This document shows, piece after piece, positions 222 to 28,200 of a stretch of 34,535 nt of DNA. The notes under the pieces are model-generated. The model was not told the DNA's origin. It saw only the letters and a list, made by a program, of their open reading frames with translations, and did not search any database. Made by a program: the position numbers and the translations under genes. Source of the stretch: Gemmatimonadota bacterium (lineage in GTDB: Bacteria > 4572-55 > J002). The DNA is taken from contig RFFQ01000135.1 in the NCBI GenBank assembly GCA_003697105.1, positions 1-34,535 of the forward strand. The letters run 5' to 3'. How positions within the stretch are numbered: position 1 is the stretch's first letter; the number at the start of each line of letters is the position of its first letter.

Positions 222-3200
222 CTATGGAGATTGGCACAAAGTTCGGTCTTCTGTGCTGACACGAGGGTTGTAGCGAAGATAATCTGCAACCCAATTACAT
301 CCCCATTCTAGCAACGCATCCAATCCGTCCTCTTTGCCCAGAGCGGGGTGTAGGATATTTTCTAAATTCCAAATTTTGACCTCATCTTCACTGGCAGAGG
401 CGATGGTCTTATTGTCGTTGCTGAAATTGATGTCCATGATTTTCGTATGATGTCCGGTAAATGTTGTCACTTTTTCCCCATTGGTTCGCCACAAAATGAT
501 TTGGTTATCCGTACTCGCGGAGATAATCAGGTTGCCATCAACACTGAACCCGACGCTGGTCACTTTGGATTGGTGACCGCGAAAGGTGCGAATGAGATTG
601 CCCTCCACATCCCACAACTGGATTTGATGGTTGACATTCCCCGTCAAGATATGACTGCCGTCTGGGCTGAAGGCAATTGCCGATAAACTCGTTTGGGGGT
701 CCCCAAATGAGCGGATTTTATCCCCCTTGATATTCCACAATGTGACATAACCATCCCAACCCGAGGCTGCAAGTATTTCACCGCTGGGATGAAAGGCAAC
801 ACCGGTCATTTCGTCGGGATGGATTAAGGTGCGGAGCAGTTTGCCCGTTTTGCTCCACAGTTTTATCGTCTGGTCAACACTGGCAGAAGCCATCAGGTTT
901 CCATCCGGGCTGAAAGCGACATCCCAAATCCAGTCCTGGTGCCCACTCAATGTTTTTAGCAGCTTGCCGGTGCGACTCCATATTTTCATGGTTTGATCTG
1001 CGGAAGCGGTGATGAGCTGGTCGCCGCTGGGACTGAATGTGACATGGTAAATCACATCTGAATGAGCTTGCCAGGATCGTAATGGTTTGCCGTTGGCTTC
1101 CCACAGTTGAACGACTCCTTGTTCGGTGGCAGTGGCGAGCCGGTTGCCATCGGGACTGAAAGTAACACTGGTTAAATGCGGTGTCTCCGGGAACAATCGG
1201 TTTTGTTCGGTTACTTCTGCGGCGAGTTCTTCCAACATCTGTTGAACCTTTTGTTGTAGCTCTAGGGGAATTTCGGCTTGCGAGAGCCGTTGTCCCGCCT
1301 TAATAGCGGCAATTAAGGCGCCGAGTTGATCCATGGCGTCACGGTGTTGCTTGGCTTGGTCTAATAATATCTTAATTTGTCCCTGTACCGCTAAATTCCG
1401 CTGTTCCTCCGCAATTTTTTTTTGCCGGAGGGCTTCTTGTTTGTTTTGAATGGCGATTTCGCGCTCTTGTTCGGCGATGGCTTTCTGCCGGAGGGCTTCT
1501 TGTTTGTTTTGAATGGCGACTTCACGTTCTTGTTCAGCGATGGCTTTCTGCCGGATGGCTTCTTTTTCGTTTGCCTCGGCGATTGCTTTTTGTTTGATGG
1601 CCTCTTGCTCATTGATGACGGCAATCTGCCGTTGCTTCACCGCTTCTGCTCGCTGGAACAGGGCAATAACCGCCAGACACGAGACGATGACCGCTACGGC
1701 GATCACGGCTCCCATCATAATTTTACGGCGTCGCTCTTTGGCACGGAAGGCGGCTTCAATAGCATCTTTGCTGGTTTGGATGAATTCCTTTTGGATGGCG
1801 GTGGGAGCAGGTGTTTTATGGTGCTCTATGGCTTCTGTCAGCCACATTTCTGCCGCCGTAAATTCCCGCCCGCGCAGGAGCAAATCCCGACTTTTTTCGT
1901 GGGCTTCCCATTCAATGGCGCGTTGCGACCACTTCGTATGGCTTTTCACATGTTCGCGATCGGTATCAAGCGTCCGTACCAATTCGCTGAATGCGGCTTG
2001 AAAATCGCCGCGACGGCTCTCAAAATCGATCCACTGTACCGATTTTAAGCCCTCCGGCAATCTATCCTGCTCCACGGAGCGATATAATACCGGAATAATC
2101 CGCTTATTTAACTTCTGGGCATATTCTACCTCTTCTACACAGAATTCCGATTCCACGGCATGGGGTGAAATCACAAAAACGATGTTGTCGGAGGATTCAA
2201 TCCCTTGAAAAATTTCACTTTGAAAATCCGACCCAAAATCGATACTTTCTTGATCGAACCAGGTGATTTTTCCTTGCAGTTGTAACTGCTCGTTGAGAAG
2301 GCGGCAAAAATCTCCATCCGCCCGTGAATAGGAGAGGAAAACATCCGCTGTCGTATCTGGGGGTTGGTTTTCACTCTCTTCGATGAATTCTTTATGGATC
2401 GGTAGCATCGGGTGGTCAGGGTGCTTATCCGCTAACCGTACCCATGCCTGAGCATTTTTGAGTTCATGTCCCCGTAATAAGATACCCGGATTTTTATTTT
2501 GGCGTTCCCAGCGTAACGCCTTGACCAACAGCATCTTATGTTGATAGTAATAATCCCGATCCCGGTGTAGTTCGTAAAGGAGTTTGTCGATACCCTTGTA
2601 ATAGGTTTCATCCGCATCATCTTCAGATTTGGGGAGAATATCAATAAATTGTACTTTTCGGATTTCGGGCGGCAGGGTGTTCAAGTCGGTGGGTGCCACC
2701 ACCAACATGATAATTCGTTTTTTCAATTGTGTCGCATAGGCTAATTCTTGTTGGCAATATTCGGATTCCAAAGAGTCGGGGGAGAGTAGAAAGACCACAT
2801 TGGTCGTTTCTTCAATTCCTTTGTTAATTTCTTCCTGAAATTCTACGCCGGTGCGGATATCGGTGAGGTTTGTCCAGACGGTCAGACTGTTGCGCATTAA
2901 GGATTGCTTGATCTTTTCCATCATTTCTGTATTCTGGGTGGAATAGCTCAAAAACACGTCTGTAACCAATCCTTGTGCATTTTTGATGCTCTCGGTGATG
3001 TACTCCGCATGGAGCAAGGTTGGTTCGCAGGGTGCTTGCTGGGTGTCAAAGCGTTGTTTTAACCACTTTTCCGCCTGAATCCGGTTTTCTCCAGTGAGTA
3101 AGTATTCGACGCGTTTTTGGTGCCGTTCCCAATAAAGCGCTTGGGTCAGGATTTGGGTATGCAACTTCACATAATCTTCATGCCGGTGCAAAAGTTCCAC

Positions 3201-3638
3201 AAGTCCTGAAAACGCCTGCTCGAAATTATCCACCGCTTCGTATTGATCTTGAGGTACCTCCGGATCGTACTTTTCGCGCATGTAAATCCAGTTGATCTTA
3301 CCAATTACCGGATGGATGCTGTCCCACAACCCTTCGGGTTCTACATGCAAAATGGGGATGATGCGCTTGTTACGCCGCACGGCTAATTCGATTTCTTTTA
3401 AGCAATATTCGGATTTCACCGAGTGCGGCGCTATTATGAAAATAAAATTATGAGCTTTTTCGATTCCATCATCAATCTGATTTTGAAAATCAACCCCCAA
3501 CGGGATGTCATTCTGATCAAACCAAACTTGGAAGCCACTTTCCTGCAACCGGTTGTGTAATTTCGTCGCAAATGCTTTGCTTTCTGCACGACCGTAAGAA
3601 ATAAACACATCATTATGCCCAATCAAATTTTCCATCAT
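222..3638 (-). CDS. Triple-TIR, single-membrane-segment, WD40 repeat protein
   Basis: 1138 residues. Three TIR domains start near residues 10, 227 and 431 (each opens with V-F-x-S-Y) and each is followed by a similar helical linker ending in an LL-x-G ... W-L ... P ... EFI/EYI pattern, so the TIR-plus-linker unit of about 210 residues was triplicated. All three keep a Glu three residues after a Cys (C79/E82, C295/E298, C500/E503), the place of the catalytic Glu in NAD-cleaving TIRs. A basic patch (R637-K639) precedes one hydrophobic segment (about 640-661), then a coiled coil with 21-residue repeats (about 664-760), then seven WD40 blades (about 820-1091) and a Cys-containing tail (GCNW, residues 1113-1116) that I have seen on other bacterial WD40 proteins. 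The first ATG sits behind AGAGGT with good spacing and overlaps the stop of the upstream pseudouridine synthase gene by 4 bases (ATGA). TIR proteins are often NADase or signalling effectors in defence; function here is inferred. No STAND NTPase domain is visible. Confidence 0.9.
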   Translation of the reverse strand: MMENLIGHNDVFISYGRAESKAFATKLHNRLQESGFQVWFDQNDIPLGVDFQNQIDDGIEKAHNFIFIIAPHSVKSEYCLKEIELAVRRNKRIIPILHVEPEGLWDSIHPVIGKINWIYMREKYDPEVPQDQYEAVDNFEQAFSGLVELLHRHEDYVKLHTQILTQALYWERHQKRVEYLLTGENRIQAEKWLKQRFDTQQAPCEPTLLHAEYITESIKNAQGLVTDVFLSYSTQNTEMMEKIKQSLMRNSLTVWTNLTDIRTGVEFQEEINKGIEETTNVVFLLSPDSLESEYCQQELAYATQLKKRIIMLVVAPTDLNTLPPEIRKVQFIDILPKSEDDADETYYKGIDKLLYELHRDRDYYYQHKMLLVKALRWERQNKNPGILLRGHELKNAQAWVRLADKHPDHPMLPIHKEFIEESENQPPDTTADVFLSYSRADGDFCRLLNEQLQLQGKITWFDQESIDFGSDFQSEIFQGIESSDNIVFVISPHAVESEFCVEEVEYAQKLNKRIIPVLYRSVEQDRLPEGLKSVQWIDFESRRGDFQAAFSELVRTLDTDREHVKSHTKWSQRAIEWEAHEKSRDLLLRGREFTAAEMWLTEAIEHHKTPAPTAIQKEFIQTSKDAIEAAFRAKERRRKIMMGAVIAVAVIVSCLAVIALFQRAEAVKQRQIAVINEQEAIKQKAIAEANEKEAIRQKAIAEQEREVAIQNKQEALRQKAIAEQEREIAIQNKQEALRQKKIAEEQRNLAVQGQIKILLDQAKQHRDAMDQLGALIAAIKAGQRLSQAEIPLELQQKVQQMLEELAAEVTEQNRLFPETPHLTSVTFSPDGNRLATATEQGVVQLWEANGKPLRSWQAHSDVIYHVTFSPSGDQLITASADQTMKIWSRTGKLLKTLSGHQDWIWDVAFSPDGNLMASASVDQTIKLWSKTGKLLRTLIHPDEMTGVAFHPSGEILAASGWDGYVTLWNIKGDKIRSFGDPQTSLSAIAFSPDGSHILTGNVNHQIQLWDVEGNLIRTFRGHQSKVTSVGFSVDGNLIISASTDNQIILWRTNGEKVTTFTGHHTKIMDINFSNDNKTIASASEDEVKIWNLENILHPALGKEDGLDALLEWGCNWVADYLRYNPRVSTEDRTLCQSP
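1424..1549. repeat. 63-bp tandem repeat inside the coiled coil of the TIR-WD40 gene
   Basis: Two near-identical 63-bp units begin at 1424 and 1487, and a more diverged third begins at 1550. They encode 21-residue units of the form RQKAIAEQERE-V/I-AIQNKQEAL at residues about 696-716 and 717-737. The repeat is in frame, so unit gain or loss would change the length of the coiled-coil stalk without breaking the gene. Confidence 0.85.
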
Positions 3639-5337: not shown

Positions 5338-6915
5338 TTATGAAGGTGAATCTGTCAGACTCATAAATACTTTCGGTATCGATTGAATTATATCTGAGGG
5401 AATCAAACTGCGTTCACCCTGTAATGTTCGCGCCATATCACCGGCGAAACCATGCACAAAAACGCCTGCTTGTGCTGCGGAGCTTGCCGGTAACCCTTGC
5501 GCTAGAAAGGTAGCGATGATACCGGTGAGCACATCTCCTGAGCCCGCCGTTGCCATCCCCGCATTGCCGGTGGAATTAATCGAAACCTGCCCGGTGGGGG
5601 AGGCGATAATCGATCCTGCTCCTTTAAGAACAATTGTGACACCCCACTCTTGGGCCTTTTCCCGGGCGATTTCCAGCCGGTTGGGGTGGATGTCGGCTAT
5701 CGAACGTCCGATCAACCGCGCAAACTCACCGAGATGAGGTGTTAATACCAGTTGTTTGCTTTTTTTGTGTTTCAAAACGGTCATATTTGTGGTAAGGGCG
5801 TTTAAGCCGTCGGCATCAATAATCAGGGGTTGCTCGACCGTTTCGACCAAGTGGTGGATGAGGGTTTGCGTTTCCTTATCCGTGGAGAGCCCGGGACCCA
5901 CCGCGAGGCTATCGGCGTGTTGTGCCAACCTCAGAATTGGATCGTGTGCCGTGGGGTGTAATGCTCCGGTTTGGGTGGGGGGGAGTGCTGCTTTGACCAC
6001 TTCGGTCAGTTTGATTTCCATAATATCGCGGATGGTTGCCGGCATCGCTAACGTAACATAACCTGCGCCTGCACGGTATGCTGCCTGACATGTCAGCGTC
6101 GCGGCGCCGGTCATTCCCGGCGAACCTGCAACAACCAACACTTTGCCGCAGGACCCTTTGTGCGCGTCTAGTGGGCGGGAGGGTAACAACCGGCGGATAT
6201 AACCGGAGGTTAGCCAATCGATGGTAAGGTTAGGGTCTTCCGTTAATGAGCGAGGAAAGCCAATATCTAAAATATGCAAGTGACCCACATACATACTGCC
6301 CGGTGGAATCAATTGCCCAATTTTGGGGAGTCCCATCGTGCAGGTGAGGTCTGCCCGCACGCAGACACCTGCCACTGCGCCGGTATCGGTGTTGAGTCCC
6401 GATGGCACATCGACCGCCACAACCGGTTTTTGGCTCGTGTTTATCCATTCAATTATCTCGGCGACAAACCCGCGCACCGCCCCTTTAATACCGGTACCAA
6501 AAATGGCATCGACCAGCACATCGGCTGGGGTTAGATCGGTTTGCGGAAGTGACTCGGGGGTAAGGACTTCCATTGGTATCTGCAATTGGTGGCAAATGTC
6601 CGCATTCAAGCGGGCATCGCCGCGGAGTTGATCGATTGGGGTGAGCATCAGCAATTTGACCGTCCACCCCCAGTTGTGCAGATGCCGGGCAATGACAAAG
6701 CCATCCCCGCCATTATTCCCTTTGCCGGTGAAAATGTACGCAATTCTACCGGTAAATTCTGCGTGGATGATTTGGGCCGTGAGGTGTCCGGCATTTTCCA
6801 TCAGCACCGCACCGGGGATGCCAATCTCGTTGATGGTTAGGGCATCGATCTGCTGCATTTGAACGGCAGAGACCACCTTATAATTGCTACCAGATGGGGG
6901 GATGTAATGTTTCAT
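5338..6915 (-). CDS. nnr: Bifunctional NAD(P)H-hydrate epimerase / ADP-dependent dehydratase
   Basis: Two-domain repair enzyme for damaged (hydrated) NADH and NADPH. The N-terminal YjeF_N epimerase domain has GKGNNGGDGF (64-73 counting from the chosen ATG) and a DVPSGLNTDTG loop. The C-terminal ribokinase-like YjeF_C dehydratase domain (from about residue 245) has VVAGSPGMTGAA, LTPHLGEF and the nucleotide/catalytic motif AGSGDVLTG with D461. Length of 525 residues fits the fused family. The reading frame extends 8 codons upstream to a TTG at 6939, but that has no ribosome-binding site, so ATG at 6915 is preferred, with modest support (weak AAGA upstream). It is the first gene of the leftward operon that ends with the TIR-WD40 gene. 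Confidence 0.92.
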   Translation of the reverse strand: MKHYIPPSGSNYKVVSAVQMQQIDALTINEIGIPGAVLMENAGHLTAQIIHAEFTGRIAYIFTGKGNNGGDGFVIARHLHNWGWTVKLLMLTPIDQLRGDARLNADICHQLQIPMEVLTPESLPQTDLTPADVLVDAIFGTGIKGAVRGFVAEIIEWINTSQKPVVAVDVPSGLNTDTGAVAGVCVRADLTCTMGLPKIGQLIPPGSMYVGHLHILDIGFPRSLTEDPNLTIDWLTSGYIRRLLPSRPLDAHKGSCGKVLVVAGSPGMTGAATLTCQAAYRAGAGYVTLAMPATIRDIMEIKLTEVVKAALPPTQTGALHPTAHDPILRLAQHADSLAVGPGLSTDKETQTLIHHLVETVEQPLIIDADGLNALTTNMTVLKHKKSKQLVLTPHLGEFARLIGRSIADIHPNRLEIAREKAQEWGVTIVLKGAGSIIASPTGQVSINSTGNAGMATAGSGDVLTGIIATFLAQGLPASSAAQAGVFVHGFAGDMARTLQGERSLIPSDIIQSIPKVFMSLTDSPS

Positions 6916-7244: not shown

Positions 7245-7273
7245 TTGATTTTTTGAGATTTTTCGGATATAAT
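7245..7273 (+). promoter_or_regulatory. Sigma-70-type promoter for the TPR-hpf-hprK-HPr run
   Basis: TTGATT (7245-7250), 17-base spacer, then perfect TATAAT (7268-7273). Transcription would start near 7280, about 43 bases before the ATG at 7323, leaving AAGGA (7308-7312) as ribosome-binding site. No terminator is evident between the TPR gene and hpf, so it may serve those genes too. Confidence 0.75.
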
Positions 7274-7322: not shown

Positions 7323-10300
7323 ATGGCAGATGCGGAAAAAATCATCCGAAAAGCCCTTCGTTTTAAAGAAAATAAGCAATTCGATAAAGCCACTGAAACC
7401 CTCCGTGATTTTCTCAAAGACCATGGTCATCATTTTGACGTCCTGTGGGAACTTGCCGCCATTTACTTTGAAAGTGGGCGGGAAAAATCCGGTGTGACCA
7501 CCTTACGGCAGGTTTTAAAGTCGTATCCCAGTAAAATTCAAGCCGTTTCTGCATTTTTGGAACGGGAATGGAAACATGCCCGGGATCCAGAATCATTGCT
7601 CTGGTTTTTGTGGGAAAATCAGATTCACCAGCGTGACTTTGATGAAGCCAATCGGGTGCTGGAACGGCTCGATACCCCCGCCATTCAAGAGCAATTAACG
7701 CACTATCGGGAAAATCTGCGTCACATTGAGGAATATAAAGACCCGACGAATTACGATGATAATGACATCGATACCTTCTATTATCTCGCGGAATTGCAAC
7801 GCCACCTCGGTCAGACGGAAGAAGCGTTGATCTCCATCCGCAAACTAATCGATCTCCGCCCCGCCGAGACCCAAAATATCAAGCAAATTTACGAAAAAGA
7901 ATATCACCGTAACCGGGAAGATGAACATACTAAGTCCATTCTCGGTGAAATCTATATGATGACGGATGATATTGAGAGTGCGGTGGAAGTCTTTCTTGAA
8001 ATTCCAGATAAAGATGCGAACCGGTTGCAGGACGCGGTGCATTTGCTGGAAAAAATGCTCCTCGATAAGCCCGATAATCCAGAGCTGCTCAAAGGGATGG
8101 CAAAGATACATCTAAAATTGGATAACATCTCTGGTGGCTTGGAGTATCTGGTCCGGGCGGCAATGATTGCCCCAGAAGCCGGTGAGGAAGTTCTGCTGGA
8201 ACTCGATAAACTGAATGGTGACCATGAGGTGGGTGTGTTGTATGCCCGCGGTCAAATTTACCAACTGCAAGGGAAGTATCAAGCTGCCATCGATGCCTAT
8301 CAGACTGTTTTAGAACGCGACCCGGCTTATGAAGCGGAAGTCTTAGCCAAACTGGCTGAAATTGCCGATCAAGATAACCAGAATTTAAATGCCTTGTTGA
8401 ATATGAGCGAGCTGGAGATTCAACGGGGTGAGTTTTCAAAAGCGTTACGTTGGCTCGACAAAGCCCGCCGGTTACGTCCGGACGAAATGGATGAGATCAT
8501 CCGCCAGCTCTTGAAAATTTTGCAGGTCGATGAAAGCCATCTGGAAGCACACCGGCGGTTAGGTGACATCTATACCGATCAGGGCGATTATGAGCGTGCA
8601 GTTGCTACCTATTTGCATCTAGCGGAAACCAATCCCGCCGAGGAATGCCGGGCGGTTGTAATCAAAGGTTTAGAGACGATCCACACCAAAAAGCCATCCC
8701 ATACAACCGTTTCATTGGAACTCGGTAAATTATATATCCGCCAAAAAAATTACCAAGAAGCCATCATGCGCCTGAGCGATGTCTTAAAGTATGCACCGGA
8801 TCAACTGAATGCCGTCATGCCGTTGATTACGGAAATCCTAAATAAAGACCGTAAGCAGGCAAGTATCGTAGCCCGAATGTATGAAAGTGTGGCACTGAAA
8901 ACGGGTATTGATGATACGTTGGTCGCATTGGCTTTGGCAAAAGCCTATGTTTACGAACGCCAATACGAACGGGCTACCCAGCAGTTGGAACGTGTGCTGG
9001 CACTTGATGAGAGCTACACGGATGCCGTAGTTCCTGTGTACCAGCAGATTTTGGATGAGAATCCTTCCCACCACGAAAGCCGACTCGCATTAGCCGATTT
9101 GTATATGCGCCAAGGGCAGTATCCGGCGGCAGTGGATGTTTTGCGCGCCGCCGCCCGTCACAACCAGAGCAGTTCCCAAATCATTGAGTTGTTTTATAGG
9201 ATTTTGGATCGAGAGGATAGTGATTATACCCGCCAAGCCTTGATCGAGACCCTCCACGAACGCAAATTAACCGACTTGACGATTCAAGAGTGCGAAAAGG
9301 TGATTCAAAAATCACCGGAGGCGGCTTATGCCTACGAAATCTTGGCGGATGCCCTGATTGAAAAGGGACATTTCACCCAATCCGTGGACCGGATGTATGC
9401 CTTGATGGCAATGGATGCCTCCACAGTGGATGTGGTCTTGGAAAAATGTGACCGTATCCTCAGTATTGATGAGACGAATGTTGCCGCCCGCTATTGCCGG
9501 GCAGAAGCCTTCATTAAAAAAGACCGTCTCGCAGATGCCGTTGATGAATTTATGCGGGTGCTGAAATATGATTCAGACCGGATTGAGGCGGTAATCGATC
9601 ATCTCAAGCGGGTGATTTCCCTCCAGCACACGAATGTGGACGCTCATCTGGCGTTAGGGGAAGTTTATCTCCAGAAAAATGATTACAATGAAGCCTCGCG
9701 GGCTTTCAGTACGGCACTGGAGCTTGATAGTGACCGGCTGGGGGAAGTGATTCGCAAATATTATCAAATTCTGAAACTCGATCCGGTGAATGTTACGGCG
9801 CATTTTATGCTGGGCAAAGCACTTATCAAAAAAGAAGAATATGCCAAAGCGGTTGAGCACCTTGATATGGCGCTGGAATTGGATTACCAGTTCATGGAGC
9901 CGGTCATGCGGGAGTACCAACGCGCGCTGGAACAGGACGCGAGCGTCCCGCAAACCCACTTGGCATTAGGCCAGATTTATGCCCAGAAAAATTTATATTC
10001 CTCGGCTATCGAACATTTCACCAAAACCTTGGAGTTAGATGCCAGTTTGGCAACACAGGTGATCGACCAGTATCAGGCAATACTCCTGAAGTCACCGGCT
10101 CAAGCCAAAGTCCGGTTCGCTCTAGGTAACGCATATATCGTGGATCAGGATTATCCGGCGGCAATCGAACAGATCGAAACTGCATTAAAGACCGACGAAA
10201 AATTACTGCCCCAAGCGATTGAAGCGTATGAATCCATCTTAGTGCGCGACCAGCAGAATGCGCGCGCATTATTGGCGCTGGCAAAAGGCTATGTTCAGCA

Positions 10301-11147
10301 GGGCAATTTTGAAAATGCGGCAACGCATTTGGTGCAAGTGGCCGATTTAGACCCGAATCAGACGGAAGCTATCATCGAAGGCTTGGAGATGATTTTGGAT
10401 GCAGACCCCAGTCAGGTGACTTCCCGTTTGTATCTCGGTGATATGTATTCCCGTAAAGGAGCGTATTCCAACGCCTTGGAGGAATTTCATAAAGCGTTGG
10501 ACCAAACGGAAGATGTCCACCAACGCGTAGAGTTGTATCTTCATATCGGCAATACCTATGTGGCATTACAAGATGACGCGCGGGCACGTCAGGCGTTTTT
10601 AAGTGCTCGTGAACTTGAACCCGAAAATAGTACCTTATACCAGCAGTTGCGTGAATTGTATTCCAAACGCACCGTCACACAGATTCAACTGTTGCGTAAG
10701 CAATTAGAAGCCATGCCTACCGATCCCGCTACACGGTTGGAGTTAATTCGGCGATTGCGTGAAGCTCATCAATATGATGAAGCGATTCAAGTGGCTCAAT
10801 TTAAGGGTATTGACGCCTCGACAGAAGCTCAACGGCTACTGGAATTAGGGCGTTGCTTTTTAGAAAGAGGTGATTATTATACGGCTATTGAGGTACTCTC
10901 AGGTGTGCCGGTTGAGGGCGCATATTTAGACCGTACCGCCTTAGCCCGATTGTATTATCAGGCGATCGCGTATGAGCGCGTTGGTCTCTATCAACACGCT
11001 ATTTCCCTGCTGGAACACATCCAGCGGGTGGATATGGCGTATGCCGATGTACCGGATCGAATCCAACACAACTTTCTTCAACATGCCAAAGGGCATGTGA
11101 AAACAGTTGACTATTCGATTCAAATCATACCAGCAACAATACCCTGA
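7323..11147 (+). CDS. Giant TPR-like repeat protein with a 52-residue period
   Basis: 1274 residues, almost wholly helical repeats, without signal peptide or membrane segment, so probably cytoplasmic. From residue 670 to 1034 the repeat start (LG/LA-x-x-Y pattern, e.g. AHLALGEVYL at 774) recurs at exactly 52-residue steps (670, 722, 774, 826, 878, 930, 982, 1034); earlier units begin near 305, 357, 409, 463, 534 and 586. Each unit has a normal TPR helix pair (LG-x-x-Y ... Y-x-x-A ... L-x-L-D) plus a third helix of the form E-V-I-x-x-Y-x-x-I-L-x-x-D-P. Residues 1-300 and the C-terminal 170 are more irregular TPR-like helices. Such solenoids act as protein-binding scaffolds; the partner is unknown. 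AAGGA lies 10 bases before the ATG. It is divergent from nnr and 79 bases ahead of hpf. No enzymatic domain is visible. Confidence 0.88.
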   Translation: MADAEKIIRKALRFKENKQFDKATETLRDFLKDHGHHFDVLWELAAIYFESGREKSGVTTLRQVLKSYPSKIQAVSAFLEREWKHARDPESLLWFLWENQIHQRDFDEANRVLERLDTPAIQEQLTHYRENLRHIEEYKDPTNYDDNDIDTFYYLAELQRHLGQTEEALISIRKLIDLRPAETQNIKQIYEKEYHRNREDEHTKSILGEIYMMTDDIESAVEVFLEIPDKDANRLQDAVHLLEKMLLDKPDNPELLKGMAKIHLKLDNISGGLEYLVRAAMIAPEAGEEVLLELDKLNGDHEVGVLYARGQIYQLQGKYQAAIDAYQTVLERDPAYEAEVLAKLAEIADQDNQNLNALLNMSELEIQRGEFSKALRWLDKARRLRPDEMDEIIRQLLKILQVDESHLEAHRRLGDIYTDQGDYERAVATYLHLAETNPAEECRAVVIKGLETIHTKKPSHTTVSLELGKLYIRQKNYQEAIMRLSDVLKYAPDQLNAVMPLITEILNKDRKQASIVARMYESVALKTGIDDTLVALALAKAYVYERQYERATQQLERVLALDESYTDAVVPVYQQILDENPSHHESRLALADLYMRQGQYPAAVDVLRAAARHNQSSSQIIELFYRILDREDSDYTRQALIETLHERKLTDLTIQECEKVIQKSPEAAYAYEILADALIEKGHFTQSVDRMYALMAMDASTVDVVLEKCDRILSIDETNVAARYCRAEAFIKKDRLADAVDEFMRVLKYDSDRIEAVIDHLKRVISLQHTNVDAHLALGEVYLQKNDYNEASRAFSTALELDSDRLGEVIRKYYQILKLDPVNVTAHFMLGKALIKKEEYAKAVEHLDMALELDYQFMEPVMREYQRALEQDASVPQTHLALGQIYAQKNLYSSAIEHFTKTLELDASLATQVIDQYQAILLKSPAQAKVRFALGNAYIVDQDYPAAIEQIETALKTDEKLLPQAIEAYESILVRDQQNARALLALAKGYVQQGNFENAATHLVQVADLDPNQTEAIIEGLEMILDADPSQVTSRLYLGDMYSRKGAYSNALEEFHKALDQTEDVHQRVELYLHIGNTYVALQDDARARQAFLSARELEPENSTLYQQLRELYSKRTVTQIQLLRKQLEAMPTDPATRLELIRRLREAHQYDEAIQVAQFKGIDASTEAQRLLELGRCFLERGDYYTAIEVLSGVPVEGAYLDRTALARLYYQAIAYERVGLYQHAISLLEHIQRVDMAYADVPDRIQHNFLQHAKGHVKTVDYSIQIIPATIP

Positions 11148-11226: not shown

Positions 11227-11787
11227 ATGGAAACAATCATCACGGCGAGACATTTTGAATTGACCGATGAACTTCGGTCGCATGTGGAATCTGAGATGGA
11301 ACGGTTGCGTAATCATTCGCGAAAGTTGCACCGTGCCCATGTGATTTTGGAGATCGAACCTCATGGAAATCGTCAAATTGCCGAGATCAATCTGCATGCG
11401 AATTCCACGCAATATGTCGCCAAGTCAGAATCTCATGATATGTATGTTTCCATTGATGAGGTATTGGAAAAATTGAAGCGTCAATTGGAAAAACACCGGG
11501 ATAAAGTGATAGACCACCGGCATCGGGGTGCACATACCACGAAAGATTTAAAAGAAGAATATGCACCGGAGATGTATGATTATTCCGAATACGATACCGA
11601 CCTACCCGAAATTGTGGAGGTAGAGTACGATTTGCAGAAACCGATGTCCATTGAAGAAGCCGCATTACAGCTTAAGATGAGTCCGAATTTGTTTTTGGTG
11701 TTTATGAATGCTAAAACGGGACGGTTGAATGTTATCTTTCGCCGTAAAGATAATACCTTTGGGTTGATCCAACCGCAACGGCATTAA
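11227..11787 (+). CDS. hpf: Ribosome hibernation promoting factor, long form
   Basis: 186 residues. The N-terminal HPF/YfiA domain (about 1-100, beginning METIITARHFELT) binds in the 30S decoding region. After a charged linker the C-terminal domain (about 128-184, with KPMSIEEAALQLKMS and GRLNVIFRRKDNTFGLI) is the dimerisation module that joins two 70S ribosomes into 100S particles in long-form HPF. The frame is open 40 codons further upstream, but GAAAGGG sits 8 bases before this ATG and the family N-terminus starts here, so this start was chosen. In many bacteria hpf lies near PTS-regulatory genes and hprK; here hprK and HPr follow directly, after a hairpin. Confidence 0.95.
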   Translation: METIITARHFELTDELRSHVESEMERLRNHSRKLHRAHVILEIEPHGNRQIAEINLHANSTQYVAKSESHDMYVSIDEVLEKLKRQLEKHRDKVIDHRHRGAHTTKDLKEEYAPEMYDYSEYDTDLPEIVEVEYDLQKPMSIEEAALQLKMSPNLFLVFMNAKTGRLNVIFRRKDNTFGLIQPQRH

Positions 11788-11864: not shown

Positions 11865-12875
11865 ATGATAAATTATGAAGCGTCGGATTCACCGAGTGCT
11901 TTTTTTGCTAATGTAGAGCAGGAAGAGGTGTTCACCGTTGGCGATATGTATAACCGCTGGGGTAATACGCTCAAGCTCCGATTGTTGACCAATCAGGGGG
12001 GCTTAAAAAAACGAATTGTAAATAGTGAATTGGATCGACCCGGTCTGGCGCTCAGTGGGTATATTGAACGGTTTGCCTATCGTCGTATCCAGATTTTAGG
12101 GCAAACGGAGATGTCCTTTCTGTATAGCTTACCCCCGGAAAAGCAACGGCAAGCTGTTTATAATATTGTCCGCTTTCCGGCAGTACCGTGTATTATTGTT
12201 TGTAAAAAACTACATGTACCTTCTAAAATTTTGGAAGTGGCGAACTCACAAGGTACCGCCATCTTGCAAAGTGAACTTTCGACGGTTGACTTACAGGATC
12301 AACTCCAAAAACATCTGGAGTTTATCTTTGCGAAGCAGATACTTATTCATGGCGCTATGGTGGACGTTTACGGGGTCGGTATGTTGATTACCGGTGACGC
12401 AGGAGTCGGCAAAAGCGAATGTGCACTTGATCTGGTTGAACGAGGACACCGGTTTGTGGCGGATGACGTCGTGGTAGTTAAAAAACTGCAATTAAATACC
12501 GTCACGGCATTTGCCAATTCCCGTATCAAGCATTATATGGAAATTCGGGGATTGGGTATTATCAATGTCAAAGATTTATTCGGTATTTGGGCGGTACGAA
12601 CCCAAAAAGATGTCGATATTGTGATGAATTTATTTCGGTGGGATGGCATGAGCAATATGGACCGGGCAAACGTTGACCATAAAGTCCAAATGATTTTGGA
12701 TGTTCCCATTCGGAAGATTAGCATCCCGGTGACCTCCGGGAAAAATATGACGGTCATCTCGGAAGTAATTGCCATGAATTTCTTACGTGAAAAAATTGAA
12801 GGTATTAGTACTTCAGATGAATTTTCTAAGAATTTAACCCGAAATATGGAACACCAACGAGCGATGCAATGGTAG
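11865..12875 (+). CDS. hprK: HPr kinase/phosphorylase
   Basis: 336 residues. The N-terminal domain (about 1-145) is followed by the catalytic domain with P-loop GDAGVGKSE (177-185), VADD (198-201) and the HprK signature EIRGLGIINVKDLFG (226-240). The enzyme uses ATP or pyrophosphate to phosphorylate Ser46 of HPr and can remove it, linking carbon or energy state to regulation. An AAGG-type ribosome-binding site lies 7 bases before the ATG. Its last codons overlap the HPr start by 7 bases, so enzyme and substrate are translationally coupled. Confidence 0.96.
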   Translation: MINYEASDSPSAFFANVEQEEVFTVGDMYNRWGNTLKLRLLTNQGGLKKRIVNSELDRPGLALSGYIERFAYRRIQILGQTEMSFLYSLPPEKQRQAVYNIVRFPAVPCIIVCKKLHVPSKILEVANSQGTAILQSELSTVDLQDQLQKHLEFIFAKQILIHGAMVDVYGVGMLITGDAGVGKSECALDLVERGHRFVADDVVVVKKLQLNTVTAFANSRIKHYMEIRGLGIINVKDLFGIWAVRTQKDVDIVMNLFRWDGMSNMDRANVDHKVQMILDVPIRKISIPVTSGKNMTVISEVIAMNFLREKIEGISTSDEFSKNLTRNMEHQRAMQW

Positions 12876-19449: not shown

Positions 19450-22212
19450 ATGGCAAATAAATCTCACTCGCACGATACCCCGATGCTACGCCAATTTTGG
19501 CGAATTAAAAATGACCATGAGGACGCCATTTTGTTCTTCCGCATGGGCGATTTTTACGAGACCTTTTTTGAGGATGCCAAAATAACCTCCCAAGTGCTGG
19601 GGATTGCGCTCACCTCGCGCGGAAAAGATAAAGAGGGGCGCGATATTCCCCTCGCGGGGATTCCCTACCATGCGCTCGATTCCTATCTGGCAAAGATGGT
19701 CAAAGCCGGCTATCGGGTTGCCATTTGCGAACAACTGGAAGACCCGAAAAAAGCGAAAAAGCTAATCAAACGGGGCGTTACAGAGATTGTCACCCCGGGA
19801 ACCACCACCTCCGAAACCATTTTAGAGGAAAAATCCAATAATTACTTGGCGTCAATCTTGGTGGATAAACAACTGACGGGCTTTGCCTTTGTTGACCTCT
19901 CCACCGGAGATTTTGCCGTGACAGAATTTACCACCGACCGGGACGCCCTGAAAGATGCCATCGAGCGCGTTCATCCCGCTGAAATCTTGCTCCCCCAAGA
20001 ATTTGATAGCGGTGACCTCTTCATCGAAACCCCCGGTATCGCCATCACCCGCCGTGAAAAATGGTTATTTGACGTGGAATATGGACGGCAAACCCTGCAA
20101 GACCATCTGAACGTGGTCTCTTTGGATGGCTTTGGCTGTGAGGATATGACCGCCGGGATTGGCGCTGCCGGTGCCTTGATGACGTATCTCCAAGAGACCC
20201 AAAAACGTACCTTACCCCATATCAACCGCATCCGAGCATACCGGACGAGCCAATTTTTGATTCTCGACCGGACAACACAGCGTAATTTGGAACTTATTCG
20301 ACCGATGCGCGCCGATCAGCGTACGGGCACCTTGGTTTCTGTTCTCGATGCAACGCTTACGCCCATGGGGGGACGCTTGTTGAAAAATTGGATTTTACAT
20401 CCCCTGATGGATGTTGCCGCTATTAAAAAGCGCCAACGTGCGGTACAAGAATTCGTTGAAGATACCTATTTCCTAAACGATGTCCGCGAAATCTTGAAAA
20501 ATATTGGGGACTTAGAACGGCTTTCCACAAAGATCGCCACGGGGCGGGCGAATGCACGAGACCTCATCATGCTGGCATCTGCTTTGGAACAACTCTCCCC
20601 TTTGCATTCGCTCTTGCGGGATCACCAGTTCCATAATCGCAGTGGTCTCTTTCGGGCAGTGGAAGTTCCCACCGCGAAGGATGCCCCACCCGACCCCTTA
20701 GGTGAGATGCCGCCCAAAGAAGCTACCCCGCCGCCGTTTGGTGCCGAGTATCTTCTTCAACTCACCCAACAATTGCAACCCTGTGATGACATCACCGCTC
20801 GTATTCGTTCCACAATTGTCGATAACCCCCCCTTGGTGTTGAATGAAGGCGGCTTGATTCAGGATGGTGTCCATCCGGAACTGGATGAACTCCGCCATAT
20901 TTCCCGTAGCGGCAAACAGTGGATTGCCGAATTGCAAACCCGAGAACAAGCCCGGACCGGCATCCCGAATCTAAAGGTTAAATTTAACGGTGTTTTTGGC
21001 TATTTTATTGAGGTCAGTAAAAGCCATTTGGCAAAAGTGCCGGAGAATTACGTCCGTAAGCAGACCCTCACCAACGGCGAGCGGTATATCATCCCGGAAT
21101 TGAAAGAATATGAGGAAAAAATACTCAATGCGGAAGACCGGATACGCGAAATTGAACGAGACTTGTTTAATGACGTACGGGATGCTACGGCGCAAGAGAC
21201 CCCGCGCATCCAAAATGTGGCTCGTGCGGTTGCCATTTTGGATGTCCTCGCCTGTTTGGCAGCAGTGGCGGTGCGCAATGATTACTGTTGCCCTGAGGTC
21301 AATGAGGGCGATACCATTCAAATTCAGGAGGGGCGCCATCCGGTGGTGGAAAAACTACTCATCGGGGAGGCATTTGTCCCCAATGACCTCAAAATCAGCA
21401 ACCGCAGCGATAAAATCCTAATTATCACAGGTCCCAATTTTTCTGGAAAGTCGGTGTATCTCCGGCAAACCGCCCTGATCTCCATCATGGCGCAAATGGG
21501 GTCTTATGTGCCGGCTCGTAAGGCAACTATCGGTCTGGTAGACCGGATTTTCACCCGCGTGGGTGCTTCTGATAATTTAGCCGCCGGACGATCTACATTT
21601 TTGGTGGAGATGCAGGAAACCGCCAATATTCTAAATAATGCCACGCCAAAGTCCCTGATTTTACTCGATGAAGTAGGGCGGGGTACGAGTACATTTGATG
21701 GACTCTCCATTGCGTGGGCAGTGACGGAATATTTGCACAATCACCCGCAGGTCGGGGCAAAAACCCTTTTTGCGACCCACTATCATGAACTCACTGAACT
21801 CGAATTAACCTTGCCGCATGTAAAAAATTACAATGTCAGTGTGCGCGAAGCCGGCGATCAAGTGATTTTTCTCCGCAAGATCATCAAGGGTGCGGCCAGC
21901 CAAAGTTACGGGATTCATGTGGCAGAGTTAGCCGGTTTGCCCAAAGCAGTGATCGAACGGGCAAAAGAAGTGCTGGCGAATCTGGAAAACGAAGCACTCA
22001 CGGCAGATAACACCCCTAAATTGGCAAAAAGCCGCAAAATGAAAAAACCGGCTCAACAAATGGGGTTGTTCTCCCTGCCAGAGGAAAGTGCCCCCTCGCC
22101 AACACATCCCGTTATTGAAGAATTACGCCGTATCGTTACGGATGGGATGACCCCCCTAGAAGCCTTGAATGTGCTCGATAAACTTGTCAAAAGGGTAAAA
22201 CATGAATACTAA
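19450..22212 (+). CDS. mutS: DNA mismatch repair protein MutS
   Basis: 920 residues. The N-terminal mismatch-recognition motif GDFYETFFEDA has the F-x-E pair at F35/E37. The ATPase domain has Walker A GPNFSGKS (661-668), where GPNMAGKS or GPNMGGKS is usual, plus LLDEVGRGTSTFDG (Walker B and signature) and the THYHEL switch. The C-terminal TPLEALNVLDKLVKRVK helix is the dimerisation helix of MutS1. A proline-rich insertion (about residues 404-432) lies in the core/lever region, which makes the protein longer than E. coli MutS (853). No clear Shine-Dalgarno precedes the ATG. mutL is not in the window. Its last codons overlap the histidine kinase gene by 11 bases. Confidence 0.96.
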   Translation: MANKSHSHDTPMLRQFWRIKNDHEDAILFFRMGDFYETFFEDAKITSQVLGIALTSRGKDKEGRDIPLAGIPYHALDSYLAKMVKAGYRVAICEQLEDPKKAKKLIKRGVTEIVTPGTTTSETILEEKSNNYLASILVDKQLTGFAFVDLSTGDFAVTEFTTDRDALKDAIERVHPAEILLPQEFDSGDLFIETPGIAITRREKWLFDVEYGRQTLQDHLNVVSLDGFGCEDMTAGIGAAGALMTYLQETQKRTLPHINRIRAYRTSQFLILDRTTQRNLELIRPMRADQRTGTLVSVLDATLTPMGGRLLKNWILHPLMDVAAIKKRQRAVQEFVEDTYFLNDVREILKNIGDLERLSTKIATGRANARDLIMLASALEQLSPLHSLLRDHQFHNRSGLFRAVEVPTAKDAPPDPLGEMPPKEATPPPFGAEYLLQLTQQLQPCDDITARIRSTIVDNPPLVLNEGGLIQDGVHPELDELRHISRSGKQWIAELQTREQARTGIPNLKVKFNGVFGYFIEVSKSHLAKVPENYVRKQTLTNGERYIIPELKEYEEKILNAEDRIREIERDLFNDVRDATAQETPRIQNVARAVAILDVLACLAAVAVRNDYCCPEVNEGDTIQIQEGRHPVVEKLLIGEAFVPNDLKISNRSDKILIITGPNFSGKSVYLRQTALISIMAQMGSYVPARKATIGLVDRIFTRVGASDNLAAGRSTFLVEMQETANILNNATPKSLILLDEVGRGTSTFDGLSIAWAVTEYLHNHPQVGAKTLFATHYHELTELELTLPHVKNYNVSVREAGDQVIFLRKIIKGAASQSYGIHVAELAGLPKAVIERAKEVLANLENEALTADNTPKLAKSRKMKKPAQQMGLFSLPEESAPSPTHPVIEELRRIVTDGMTPLEALNVLDKLVKRVKHEY

Positions 22213-24163
22213 GGTTTGCGATCTAGAAGCTCAACTCGCTTTGGCAAATGGCGCCCAGCGGATCAACTTGCTGAACGAACTCGGTCATGAACTCCGCTTT
22301 ACAGACCCTGCACGGGCACTTTCCTTAGCGGAAAAGGCGGCTCAATTGGCAGAAAAAACATCCGATCTGGCGGGAAAAGCACACAGTTTGCGTTTACAGG
22401 GGTGGTGCCATTACCAACTTGGCGAGTTGAAGAAGGCGTTGGCGTTTAGCCAACAGGCGTTAGCACTTGCTATCGAGCTAAATGACAAAAAATTGCAATC
22501 TAAAGCGCTTAACACCATCGGGGTCGTTCATAAGTCGCAGGGGCAATACCCGCAAGCACTGGAAAACTATCACCGTTGCTTGGATTTACAACGGGAAATC
22601 GACGATCTGCAGGGGATTGCCAACTCCCTCAATAATATTGCGTTGACCTACTTTACGCTCGGAGATTATCCGCAAGCATTGGACTATCTCCAACAAAGTT
22701 TGTCACTCTACCAACAGATTCAAGACCCTTCGGGTGAAGCACGGGCTTTGATGAATCTTGGCACTGTTTACGGCGAATTAGAGATGTATGATAAAGCACG
22801 AGAGTCTTTTCAGAAAAATCTTGAATTTCGGCGTTCTCATTTAAATGACCGCCGGGGGGAGGGCTTGGCGCTACATAATTTGGGGATTATTTGTTCTGAA
22901 TTACAGGAGTATGACCAGGCACTGGATTATTACCGCCAAAGTATTGAAATATCACAAGTTATCGGCGATACCTTTCTGGAAGCGGTTTCTCGCCATAACA
23001 TGGGAAACACCTTGCGTGACTTGCGCCGGTTTGATGAAGCATTAGAAGCGCACCAGCACAGCTTAAATCTACGGCAGCAGATGGGGGACCTGGATGGATT
23101 AAGCTATAGCCTGCAAAATCTGGGGGAATTATATGGCAATCCTGAGGTTGAATTTTATGACCCGGTTACGGCGCTGGATTATCTCTATCAGGCACTTGCT
23201 ATTGCTCAGGAGCAAGGGTCATTGTCACGTCAGTGCGAAGTTCATCTTGTCTTTTCAACGGTTTACCAACATGTTGGGGACATCGACCATGCCTTTGAGC
23301 ATCACCAAAAATATCACCAGCTTTGGGTGCAGTTGCATAATGAGAAAAGTACTCAGGCGCTTGCCAATTTACAGGCGGTACATCAAACGGAGCAAGCAAA
23401 GAAAGAAGCTGAAATTTACCGGCTCCGCAACGTGGAATTAGCCCAACTGGTGGAGCAATTGCGCGAGTTAGTCCACGAAAAAACCGAAATTATGGGCATT
23501 GTATCCCATGATCTCAAAAATCCACTGGCGGCGATTATGGGATTAATCGATATGCTGTTGCGAGATGATTTTCAATTGTCTGCCGAAAAAGAACGTGAAT
23601 GTAAACAGAATATCAAAAAAATTAGTAAACGGATGTTGGAAATGATTGTTCAACTCCTCGACGCCAATCAGCTTGATACGGGACAGATGGAATTAACCCC
23701 CACGCCGTTCGATATTATCATGACGCTGCATATGAAGGTCGAAGAATTTCGTCTTAGGGCGGCGGAAAAGTCCATTGAACTGCAATTTTTGCCGGAGTGG
23801 GGGGGGGTTGAGGTCTATGCGGATGAAGCCGCTGTTGAACGGGTTCTTGATAATCTCATATCCAATGCGATCAAATATTCCCCGCCAGATACAACAGTGA
23901 CCGTTCAGGTAAAACCCGGAACGGATACGGTTTGTATCAGCGTACAGGATCAAGGACAAGGGCTTACGGAAGCAGACCAACAGAAACTTTTTGGTAAATT
24001 TCAGCGGCTTAGCGCCCAACCCACCGGTGGGGAACATTCCACGGGGTTAGGTTTGTCGATTGTCAAAAAGCTCGTGGAAGCCATGGGGGGTCAAGTTTGG
24101 GCGGAAAGCGCGGGCAAAGATCAAGGGAGTACCTTTTTTGTGGAGTTACCGGCGGCGAAATAA
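22202..24163 (+). CDS. Soluble TPR-sensor histidine kinase
   Basis: 653 residues with no membrane segment. Tetratricopeptide repeats of the 40-residue type (about 25-380, e.g. NIALTYFTLGDYPQAL) are followed by a coiled coil (about 380-430), a HisKA domain with phospho-acceptor H436 in IVSHDLKNPLAA, and an HATPase domain with N-box NLISNAIKYSP, a DQGQGL G1 box and GLGLSIVKKLVEAMGG. It should autophosphorylate and pass phosphate to a response regulator, none of which is in the window. The TPR array is likely the input surface for protein partners. The ATG lies inside the end of mutS (11-base overlap), so expression is coupled to mutS. Confidence 0.92.
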   Translation: MNTKVCDLEAQLALANGAQRINLLNELGHELRFTDPARALSLAEKAAQLAEKTSDLAGKAHSLRLQGWCHYQLGELKKALAFSQQALALAIELNDKKLQSKALNTIGVVHKSQGQYPQALENYHRCLDLQREIDDLQGIANSLNNIALTYFTLGDYPQALDYLQQSLSLYQQIQDPSGEARALMNLGTVYGELEMYDKARESFQKNLEFRRSHLNDRRGEGLALHNLGIICSELQEYDQALDYYRQSIEISQVIGDTFLEAVSRHNMGNTLRDLRRFDEALEAHQHSLNLRQQMGDLDGLSYSLQNLGELYGNPEVEFYDPVTALDYLYQALAIAQEQGSLSRQCEVHLVFSTVYQHVGDIDHAFEHHQKYHQLWVQLHNEKSTQALANLQAVHQTEQAKKEAEIYRLRNVELAQLVEQLRELVHEKTEIMGIVSHDLKNPLAAIMGLIDMLLRDDFQLSAEKERECKQNIKKISKRMLEMIVQLLDANQLDTGQMELTPTPFDIIMTLHMKVEEFRLRAAEKSIELQFLPEWGGVEVYADEAAVERVLDNLISNAIKYSPPDTTVTVQVKPGTDTVCISVQDQGQGLTEADQQKLFGKFQRLSAQPTGGEHSTGLGLSIVKKLVEAMGGQVWAESAGKDQGSTFFVELPAAK

Positions 24164-28064: not shown

Positions 28065-28102
28065 CGTGAGCAGTTTGCAGGGGGTAGTTTTCAGTGTACA
28101 AA

Positions 28103-28198
28103 AACTCCCAAACTCATAAAACTCACGAACTCCCAAACTCATAAAACTCCCAAACTCCCAAACTCCCAAACTCATAAAACTCATAAACTCTCAAACTC
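28103..28198. repeat. Array of 12 AACTC units directly before birA
   Basis: AACTC occurs at 28103, 28111, 28120, 28128, 28136, 28145, 28153, 28161, 28169, 28178, 28186 and 28194, that is at steps of 8 or 9 bases. Units alternate between AAACTCCC and AAACTCAT forms. The array fills the space between the RND gene and birA and ends two bases before the birA ATG, leaving no Shine-Dalgarno sequence. On the other strand it reads as GAGTTTGGGAGTTT, a GT-rich simple repeat. Confidence 0.85.
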
Positions 28199-28200
28199 AA

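Follow-up and report, generated by a model that had tools for sequence, protein, structure and literature searches.

The tetratricopeptide repeat (TPR) is one of the best-studied repeat folds, and its unit of 34 residues and two helices is regarded as almost invariant. In a 2024 review of alpha-solenoids, lengths of about 34 and 42 residues are given for TPRs, 36–44 for Sel1, and 31–36 for PPR (PMC11514114). Sel1 and PPR are helical solenoid relatives of TPR (PMC11514114), and the 42-residue TPRs, such as those of kinesin light chain, are a known TPR variant of unusual length (PMC11514114, PMC5642895). Here, we describe a repeat unit of 52 residues in a 1274-aa protein (by translation of the open reading frame, ORF) encoded at positions 7323–11147 on the forward strand of a 34,535-nt stretch of DNA of a Gemmatimonadota bacterium (contig RFFQ01000135.1; this whole stretch is referred to as the window). 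Each unit adds a third helix to a TPR pair, whereas the 42-residue TPRs lengthen helices A and B but keep two helices, and Sel1 and PPR units differ from it in length and in having two helices each. Nothing relevant to a 52-residue or three-helix TPR was found in the open-access literature searched, and the unit is a real, apparently undescribed variant within the TPR superfamily.

The 52-residue unit and its register

Units were placed with a profile of the 52-residue unit in two versions, the window's own and that of the family. Starts fall at residues 670, 722, 774, 826, 878, 930, 982, and 1034, all 52 residues apart, which corresponds to seven full units and one pair of helices A and B. 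The full units lie on the forward strand at 9330–9485 (residues 670–721), 9486–9641 (722–773), 9642–9797 (774–825), 9798–9953 (826–877), 9954–10109 (878–929), 10110–10265 (930–981), and 10266–10421 (982–1033); those from residue 774 to 981 are assigned by both profile and structural model, and the others by profile. With the profile built from the window itself each of them scores about 71–80 bits, and with the family profile 35–48 bits. At the eighth start (residue 1034; 10422–10523, forward strand), where a TPR pair is both matched and modelled, the match runs through helices A and B only, the typical third helix is absent, and ordinary TPR spacing is found beyond. The C-terminal part of the protein (residues 1041–1274; 10443–11144, forward strand) consists of ordinary TPR-like helices and is among the better conserved stretches between lineages. 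At lags 52 and 104, residues 661–1090 have mean BLOSUM62 self-scores of 1.00 and 0.98, respectively, whereas 500 shuffles gave no value above −0.30 at any lag from 20 to 109. The exact 52-residue spacing of eight starts that an earlier note on this DNA had proposed is thus borne out. That note understated the array, however. By the family profile, about nine more units, which are more divergent, lie upstream on the same strand: an N-terminal array at 7773–8864 (starts at residues 151, 203, 255, 305, 357, 409, and 463, with helices modelled from 305) and two further units at 8922–9233 (starts at 534 and 586).

Identity from unit to unit is about 25% at the protein level, 41% at the DNA level, and 27% at third positions. 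The latter two values indicate that the register is held by selection on the protein and not by recent duplication; a recent tandem duplication of DNA is ruled out by the level of DNA identity, and Tandem Repeats Finder detected nothing over the array. On sequence grounds, the 52-residue repeat is an old one.

The consensus pattern, derived from ten members of the family and seven units, is A-x-L-A-L-A/G-x-I-Y/L-I-x-x-G-x-Y/L-x-x-A-V-x-x-L-x-x-A-L-x-L-D-P-x-L-x-E-x-V-I-x-x-L-x-x-I-L-x-x-D-P-x-N. Positions 1–30 are textbook TPR, with the conserved TPR positions 5, 6, 9, 18, 22, and 25 and a D-P at 29–30, and in the family consensus positions 31–48 carry the helix B pattern again, shifted by 18 residues, with a second D-P at 47–48. 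The unit consists of a canonical TPR pair (A and B, 34 residues) and an 18-residue third helix (C). In their hydrophobic pattern B and C are alike one-faced, whereas A is two-faced. The two D-P motifs 18 residues apart, together with the one-faced character of both B and C, explain C as half a TPR, and the unit, as read from its motif pattern, is one and a half TPRs. The earlier description of a third helix ending in I-L-x-x-D-P is a fair summary of this pattern, although a literal D-P closes the helix in only three of the seven window units.

By profile and motif, the protein belongs to the TPR superfamily. Its A/B pattern (L-A/G-I-Y ... A-V-L-A-L-D-P) resembles that of Pfam TPR_1, TPR_2, TPR_16, and TPR_19 and of CTPR, and the Pfam matches listed (25 of 27) are to ordinary TPR-type models (TPR_19, 261.6 bits with a cut-off of 25; TPR_2, 219.9 bits with a cut-off of 27), including a TPR_16 match that spans the third helix by means of an insertion of 18 residues; Sel1 and PPR models are absent from them. 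Searching the PDB by sequence gave consensus TPR proteins that align either to A-B or, gap-free and through their own B-A-B, to the C-A-B of the unit. The unit itself departs from a two-helix architecture of about 34 residues, lag 52 being dominant and three helices being predicted per unit, and we therefore file it as a TPR variant and not as an ordinary TPR. The suggestion of an undescribed repeat class is partly supported, in that no model of a three-helix, 52-residue unit occurs among the listed Pfam or NCBIfam matches, but A-B is canonical TPR and C is TPR-B-like, so that variant is the more fitting term.

Predicted structure and geometry of the array

Two AlphaFold2 predictions were made. 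In the model of residues 290–1274 (985 aa; two sequences), helices occur in threes at exact 52-residue spacing, and the block values of the predicted local distance difference test (pLDDT) are mostly about 90 over the array. The model of four units (residues 774–981; 17 sequences) has a mean pLDDT of 97.2 and a predicted TM-score (pTM) of 0.88, in agreement with the proposal that each unit combines a TPR-like pair with an additional helix. The modelled helices comprise 13 (A), 14 (B), and 17 (C) residues, as in the unit at 9798–9953, and the joints between them 3 (A-B), 1 (B-C), and 4 (C to the next A) residues. The armadillo repeat also has three helices, in about 42 residues, with a tight joint between two of them. 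The 52-residue unit is similar in both respects and differs in that its sequence is TPR-derived; no true ARM or HEAT model is found among the listed Pfam matches and no such structure among the best-ranked fold matches, the Pfam 'ARM_TT21' matches being models of TTC21, a TPR protein.

When the four-unit model was compared with the PDB by Foldseek, TPR proteins were retrieved with significant E-values, but over the best 50 matches the TM-score by query was ≤0.33 throughout, with root-mean-square deviations (rmsd) of 10–20 angstrom. For the 985-aa model, which also retrieved TPR proteins with significant E-values, the best matches were TTC21B/IFT139, SKI3/TTC37, and CTR9, which are long, entirely helical TPR arrays comparable to it in overall size; their TM-scores were about 0.1 and their rmsd about 28–44 angstrom. 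Fitting to viral structures retrieved generic proteins of the TPR, Sel1, and similar types. As TPR proteins are retrieved but superposed poorly, the TPR character is local, and the global path of the array appears to be different from the TPR superhelix. The different twist anticipated in the earlier note is in line with these low predicted-model scores. The array contrasts with TPR in having 52 residues and three helices per unit instead of 34 and two, a one-residue B-C joint, and poor superposition on the best-ranked PDB structures.

Two other readings of the array have to be weighed here. According to the first, the geometry is not special, and this is simply a TPR protein of the ordinary kind whose TPR pairs are spaced by 18-residue linkers. 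The very strong Pfam TPR E-values, the TPR_16 match across the insertion, and the PDB sequence matches to TPR proteins over A-B or C-A-B are what such a protein would give. The 18 residues, however, contain a 17-residue helix with a pLDDT of about 97, which is amphipathic and conserved across units and lineages; the array is free of indels in most orthologs; and among 95 TPR-like ORFs lag 52 rises above threshold only in this family (see below). We therefore regard this reading as unlikely. The earlier note had itself raised the case of TPR pairs with an 18-residue half-repeat linker: the segment does correspond to half a TPR, but it is folded, conserved, and held in strict register, and is no linker.

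According to the second reading, the array is a continuous two-layer, TPR-like solenoid in which the three-helix sequence repeat runs out of phase with a two-helix structural repeat. Equivalent helices would then swap between the inner and outer layers every 104 residues, resulting in a nearly straight rod. Two units (52 × 2 = 104 residues) are near three TPRs (3 × 34 = 102), antiparallel neighbours with three helices per unit would force such an alternation, and curved TPR superhelices fit poorly. On the other hand, the one-residue B-C joint, compared with 3–4 residues at A-B and C-A, suggests a kink and not a normal antiparallel turn, and lags 52 and 104 score equally, with no sign of a two-unit period. 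An out-of-phase solenoid of this kind seems improbable to us.

Distribution of the family and a probable four-cysteine partner

Phylum-wide profile searches and a survey of 386 sampled genomes were carried out. The search for other carriers of the unit by its profile, which the earlier note had suggested, yielded full-length orthologs in several phyla. In the survey, they were found in nine of the 386 genomes at E ≤ 1e-60. The orthologs are present in one copy and are about 1260–1313 aa in length; the homolog of a close relative in the same phylum (G001, 1268 aa) aligns end to end with about 21% identity. Counted by phylum, the ortholog was detected in 2/2 genomes of the window's own phylum and in 1/1, 10/10 (one of these with its ortholog split over two contigs), 1/1, 4/8, and 3/3 genomes of the others, and two more families, in G031 and G173, belong to none of these six phyla. 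By homology, the protein thus occurs in at least seven phylum-level lineages, of which six are verified. Scans of genome contigs and viral contigs for close relatives with the single protein found nothing; when an alignment served as the query, the matches were limited to the class relative and one ordinary TPR protein.

The register is retained across this range. Residues 670–1040 align with the window without an indel in 6/8 orthologs, at roughly 12–25% identity, and the run of seven 52-residue spacings is found again in several lineages. In the census of 95 TPR-like ORFs, the commonest lag was 34. The window protein shares the properties that define the family, i.e. a length of about 1260–1310 aa, a dominant 52-residue lag, a fixed C-terminal array, and a partner (described below) in the same genome.

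Other proteins with unusual spacings were also encountered. A few 52-spaced units amid ordinary TPRs occur in three non-family TPR proteins (L048:3927–8762, L090:3877–8754, and L089:7983–10442, all on the forward strand); the first two are about 1610–1625 aa in length, and the L048 protein also carries FG-GAP and Ser/Thr kinase domains. A 54-residue period characterizes another class of TPR proteins (L091:5281–8415, L092:5621–7960, and L093:3496–6426, all on the reverse strand; lag 54 is also seen in L035, L044, L069, L074, and L020). It apparently consists of two TPRs with a common middle helix and is distinct from the 52-residue class.

In three lineages that are unrelated to one another (L081, L117, and L118), the gene that immediately follows the repeat gene encodes a protein of 411–534 aa. 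This partner has an N-terminal four-cysteine motif (CPF...C-x4-C...C), a middle part that is coiled-coil-like and variable, and C-terminal TPRs of the ordinary 34-residue kind. Genes co-occurring with the 52-repeat protein were located at L155:4923–6440 (−), L156:5519–6697 (−), L081:5845–7326 (−), L117:4471–5706 (−), L118:9167–10771 (+), and L154:2083–4326 (−). For the cysteine motif, neither Pfam (above cut-off) nor NCBIfam has a matching family, and the partner, by its sequence, represents an apparently undescribed protein family. Near the L154 partner gene (genome G105), an ORF at 5583–6428 (−) has an SMC-like ATPase C-terminal signature (LSGGEK).

In a search of 19 genomes, each genome with the repeat protein had a partner match extending past the TPRs, and the partner was present in 17/17 of the genomes checked that carry the repeat protein. 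The four-cysteine motif is present in 16/17 partners examined, the exception being truncated at a contig end. Four genomes that have no repeat protein (G397, G093, G231, and G398), from the phylum with patchy occurrence, gave only generic TPR matches and no partner. In the window genome, the partner (505 aa) is encoded on another contig (C46, at L155), and the 140-aa gene adjoining it there is not common to other genomes. A reverse test was carried out by searching the 386 genomes with a partner profile, for which true matches had E ≤ 1e-51 and generic TPR matches E ≥ 5e-38; the outcome covers two new matches, G173 and G031, with the new matches G313 and G178 left out. In G173, an ORF with the 52-residue lag lies directly upstream of the partner, which adds a fourth lineage with adjacency, and in G031 a 1259-aa ORF with this lag is encoded elsewhere in the genome.

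Gene surroundings and proposed role

Upstream of the repeat gene in the window (GC content, 48.4%) is a promoter-like sigma-70 match, TTGATT-17-TATAAT, at 7245–7273 (+), which is a consensus match only. The gene is followed in the same direction by hpf for a hibernation-promoting factor (S30AE; 11228–11787, +), which starts ~80 nt past it, and by the HPr kinase gene hprK (11865–12875, +). As hpf and hprK are close by and on the same strand, the protein might be thought a starvation or carbon-regulation hub acting with the hibernation factor, the HPr kinase, and a STAS protein encoded in the window. None of these neighbours adjoins the orthologs in the other lineages examined, however, and such a hub is very improbable. 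The neighbouring genes at large (hpf, hprK, Yip1, PPK2, CarD, Era, and others) were rejected as a functional clue because their adjacency is not conserved. Distant membership in one of the named TPR families (such as PrsT, LapB, PilW, SgmX, or GltE), with the protein doing that family's job, is hardly credible either, since the NCBIfam models match at low E-values but over TPR motifs only and with scores far below the curated cut-offs (score/cut-off: PrsT, 197/312; LapB, 154/474; PilW, 90/154; SgmX, 33/1800), all named TPR equivalogs falling below cut-off except the promiscuous YbgF model.

The window also contains other features. A 1138-aa protein encoded at 222–3638 (−) comprises three TIR domains and then a WD40 propeller, which is an unusual multi-TIR arrangement, and matches several TIR defence models. 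For the repeat protein, PADLOC gave only one weak match. A histidine kinase fused to a TPR array is encoded at 22202–24163 (+), immediately after mutS, and an imperfect AAACTCCC/AAACTCAC repeat array is located at 28102–28199 between the genes for an AcrB-type transporter and a biotin ligase.

The 52-repeat protein is probably, in our view, a cytoplasmic scaffold of 1.5-TPR solenoid units, most likely in complex with the four-cysteine, coiled-coil TPR partner. It contains no transmembrane-like segment (maximum KD19, 1.08) and no obvious signal peptide in its first residues, as judged by eye, which makes a cytoplasmic location likely; none of the family members scanned has an evident transmembrane-like stretch. 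Its fixed length, fixed unit number, and few indels suggest a scaffold whose dimensions matter, and the linkage of the partner gene suggests a common complex. In each unit, the A-B TPR hairpin would be followed after one residue by a helix C that is derived from, or mimics, a TPR B helix and that may pack on the next A in the position otherwise held by the B helix before it. The array would then be a string of C-A-B cores linked at tight B/C joints, along a path unlike the TPR superhelix, with its length and unit number fixed by selection. The partner combines its N-terminal four-cysteine motif and its coiled coil with four ordinary C-terminal TPRs; judged from the motif, its cysteines probably bind zinc.

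Several points weigh against this interpretation. In the window genome and in several lineages, the partner gene lies apart from the repeat gene, and neighbours other than the partner are not conserved, so that no pathway is indicated. The evolutionary distances of the repeat protein and the partner are correlated (r = 0.92), which is largely expected from common species history. The number of first-look candidates per genome was capped in the surveys, which makes absences soft, and Foldseek ranks by sequence-and-structure alignment, so that a better superposition may rank below the best 50. Finally, the handedness, the pitch, and the packing of C are inferred.

A broader proposal, which we put forward only tentatively, is that a new regular three-helix alpha-solenoid arose from TPR by the gain of a half-repeat in every unit, and that the reason why its unit number has stayed fixed across seven or more deep bacterial lineages is the formation of a dedicated two-protein machine with the zinc-binding, coiled-coil TPR partner. 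The 52-residue, three-helix derivative, which is conserved at about 20% identity with hardly any indels, shows a route by which a solenoid unit can change from two helices to three, and it provides protein designers with a new regular building block. In the little-known lineages that carry it, the partner makes what was an anonymous TPR protein part of a two-component system that can be tested.

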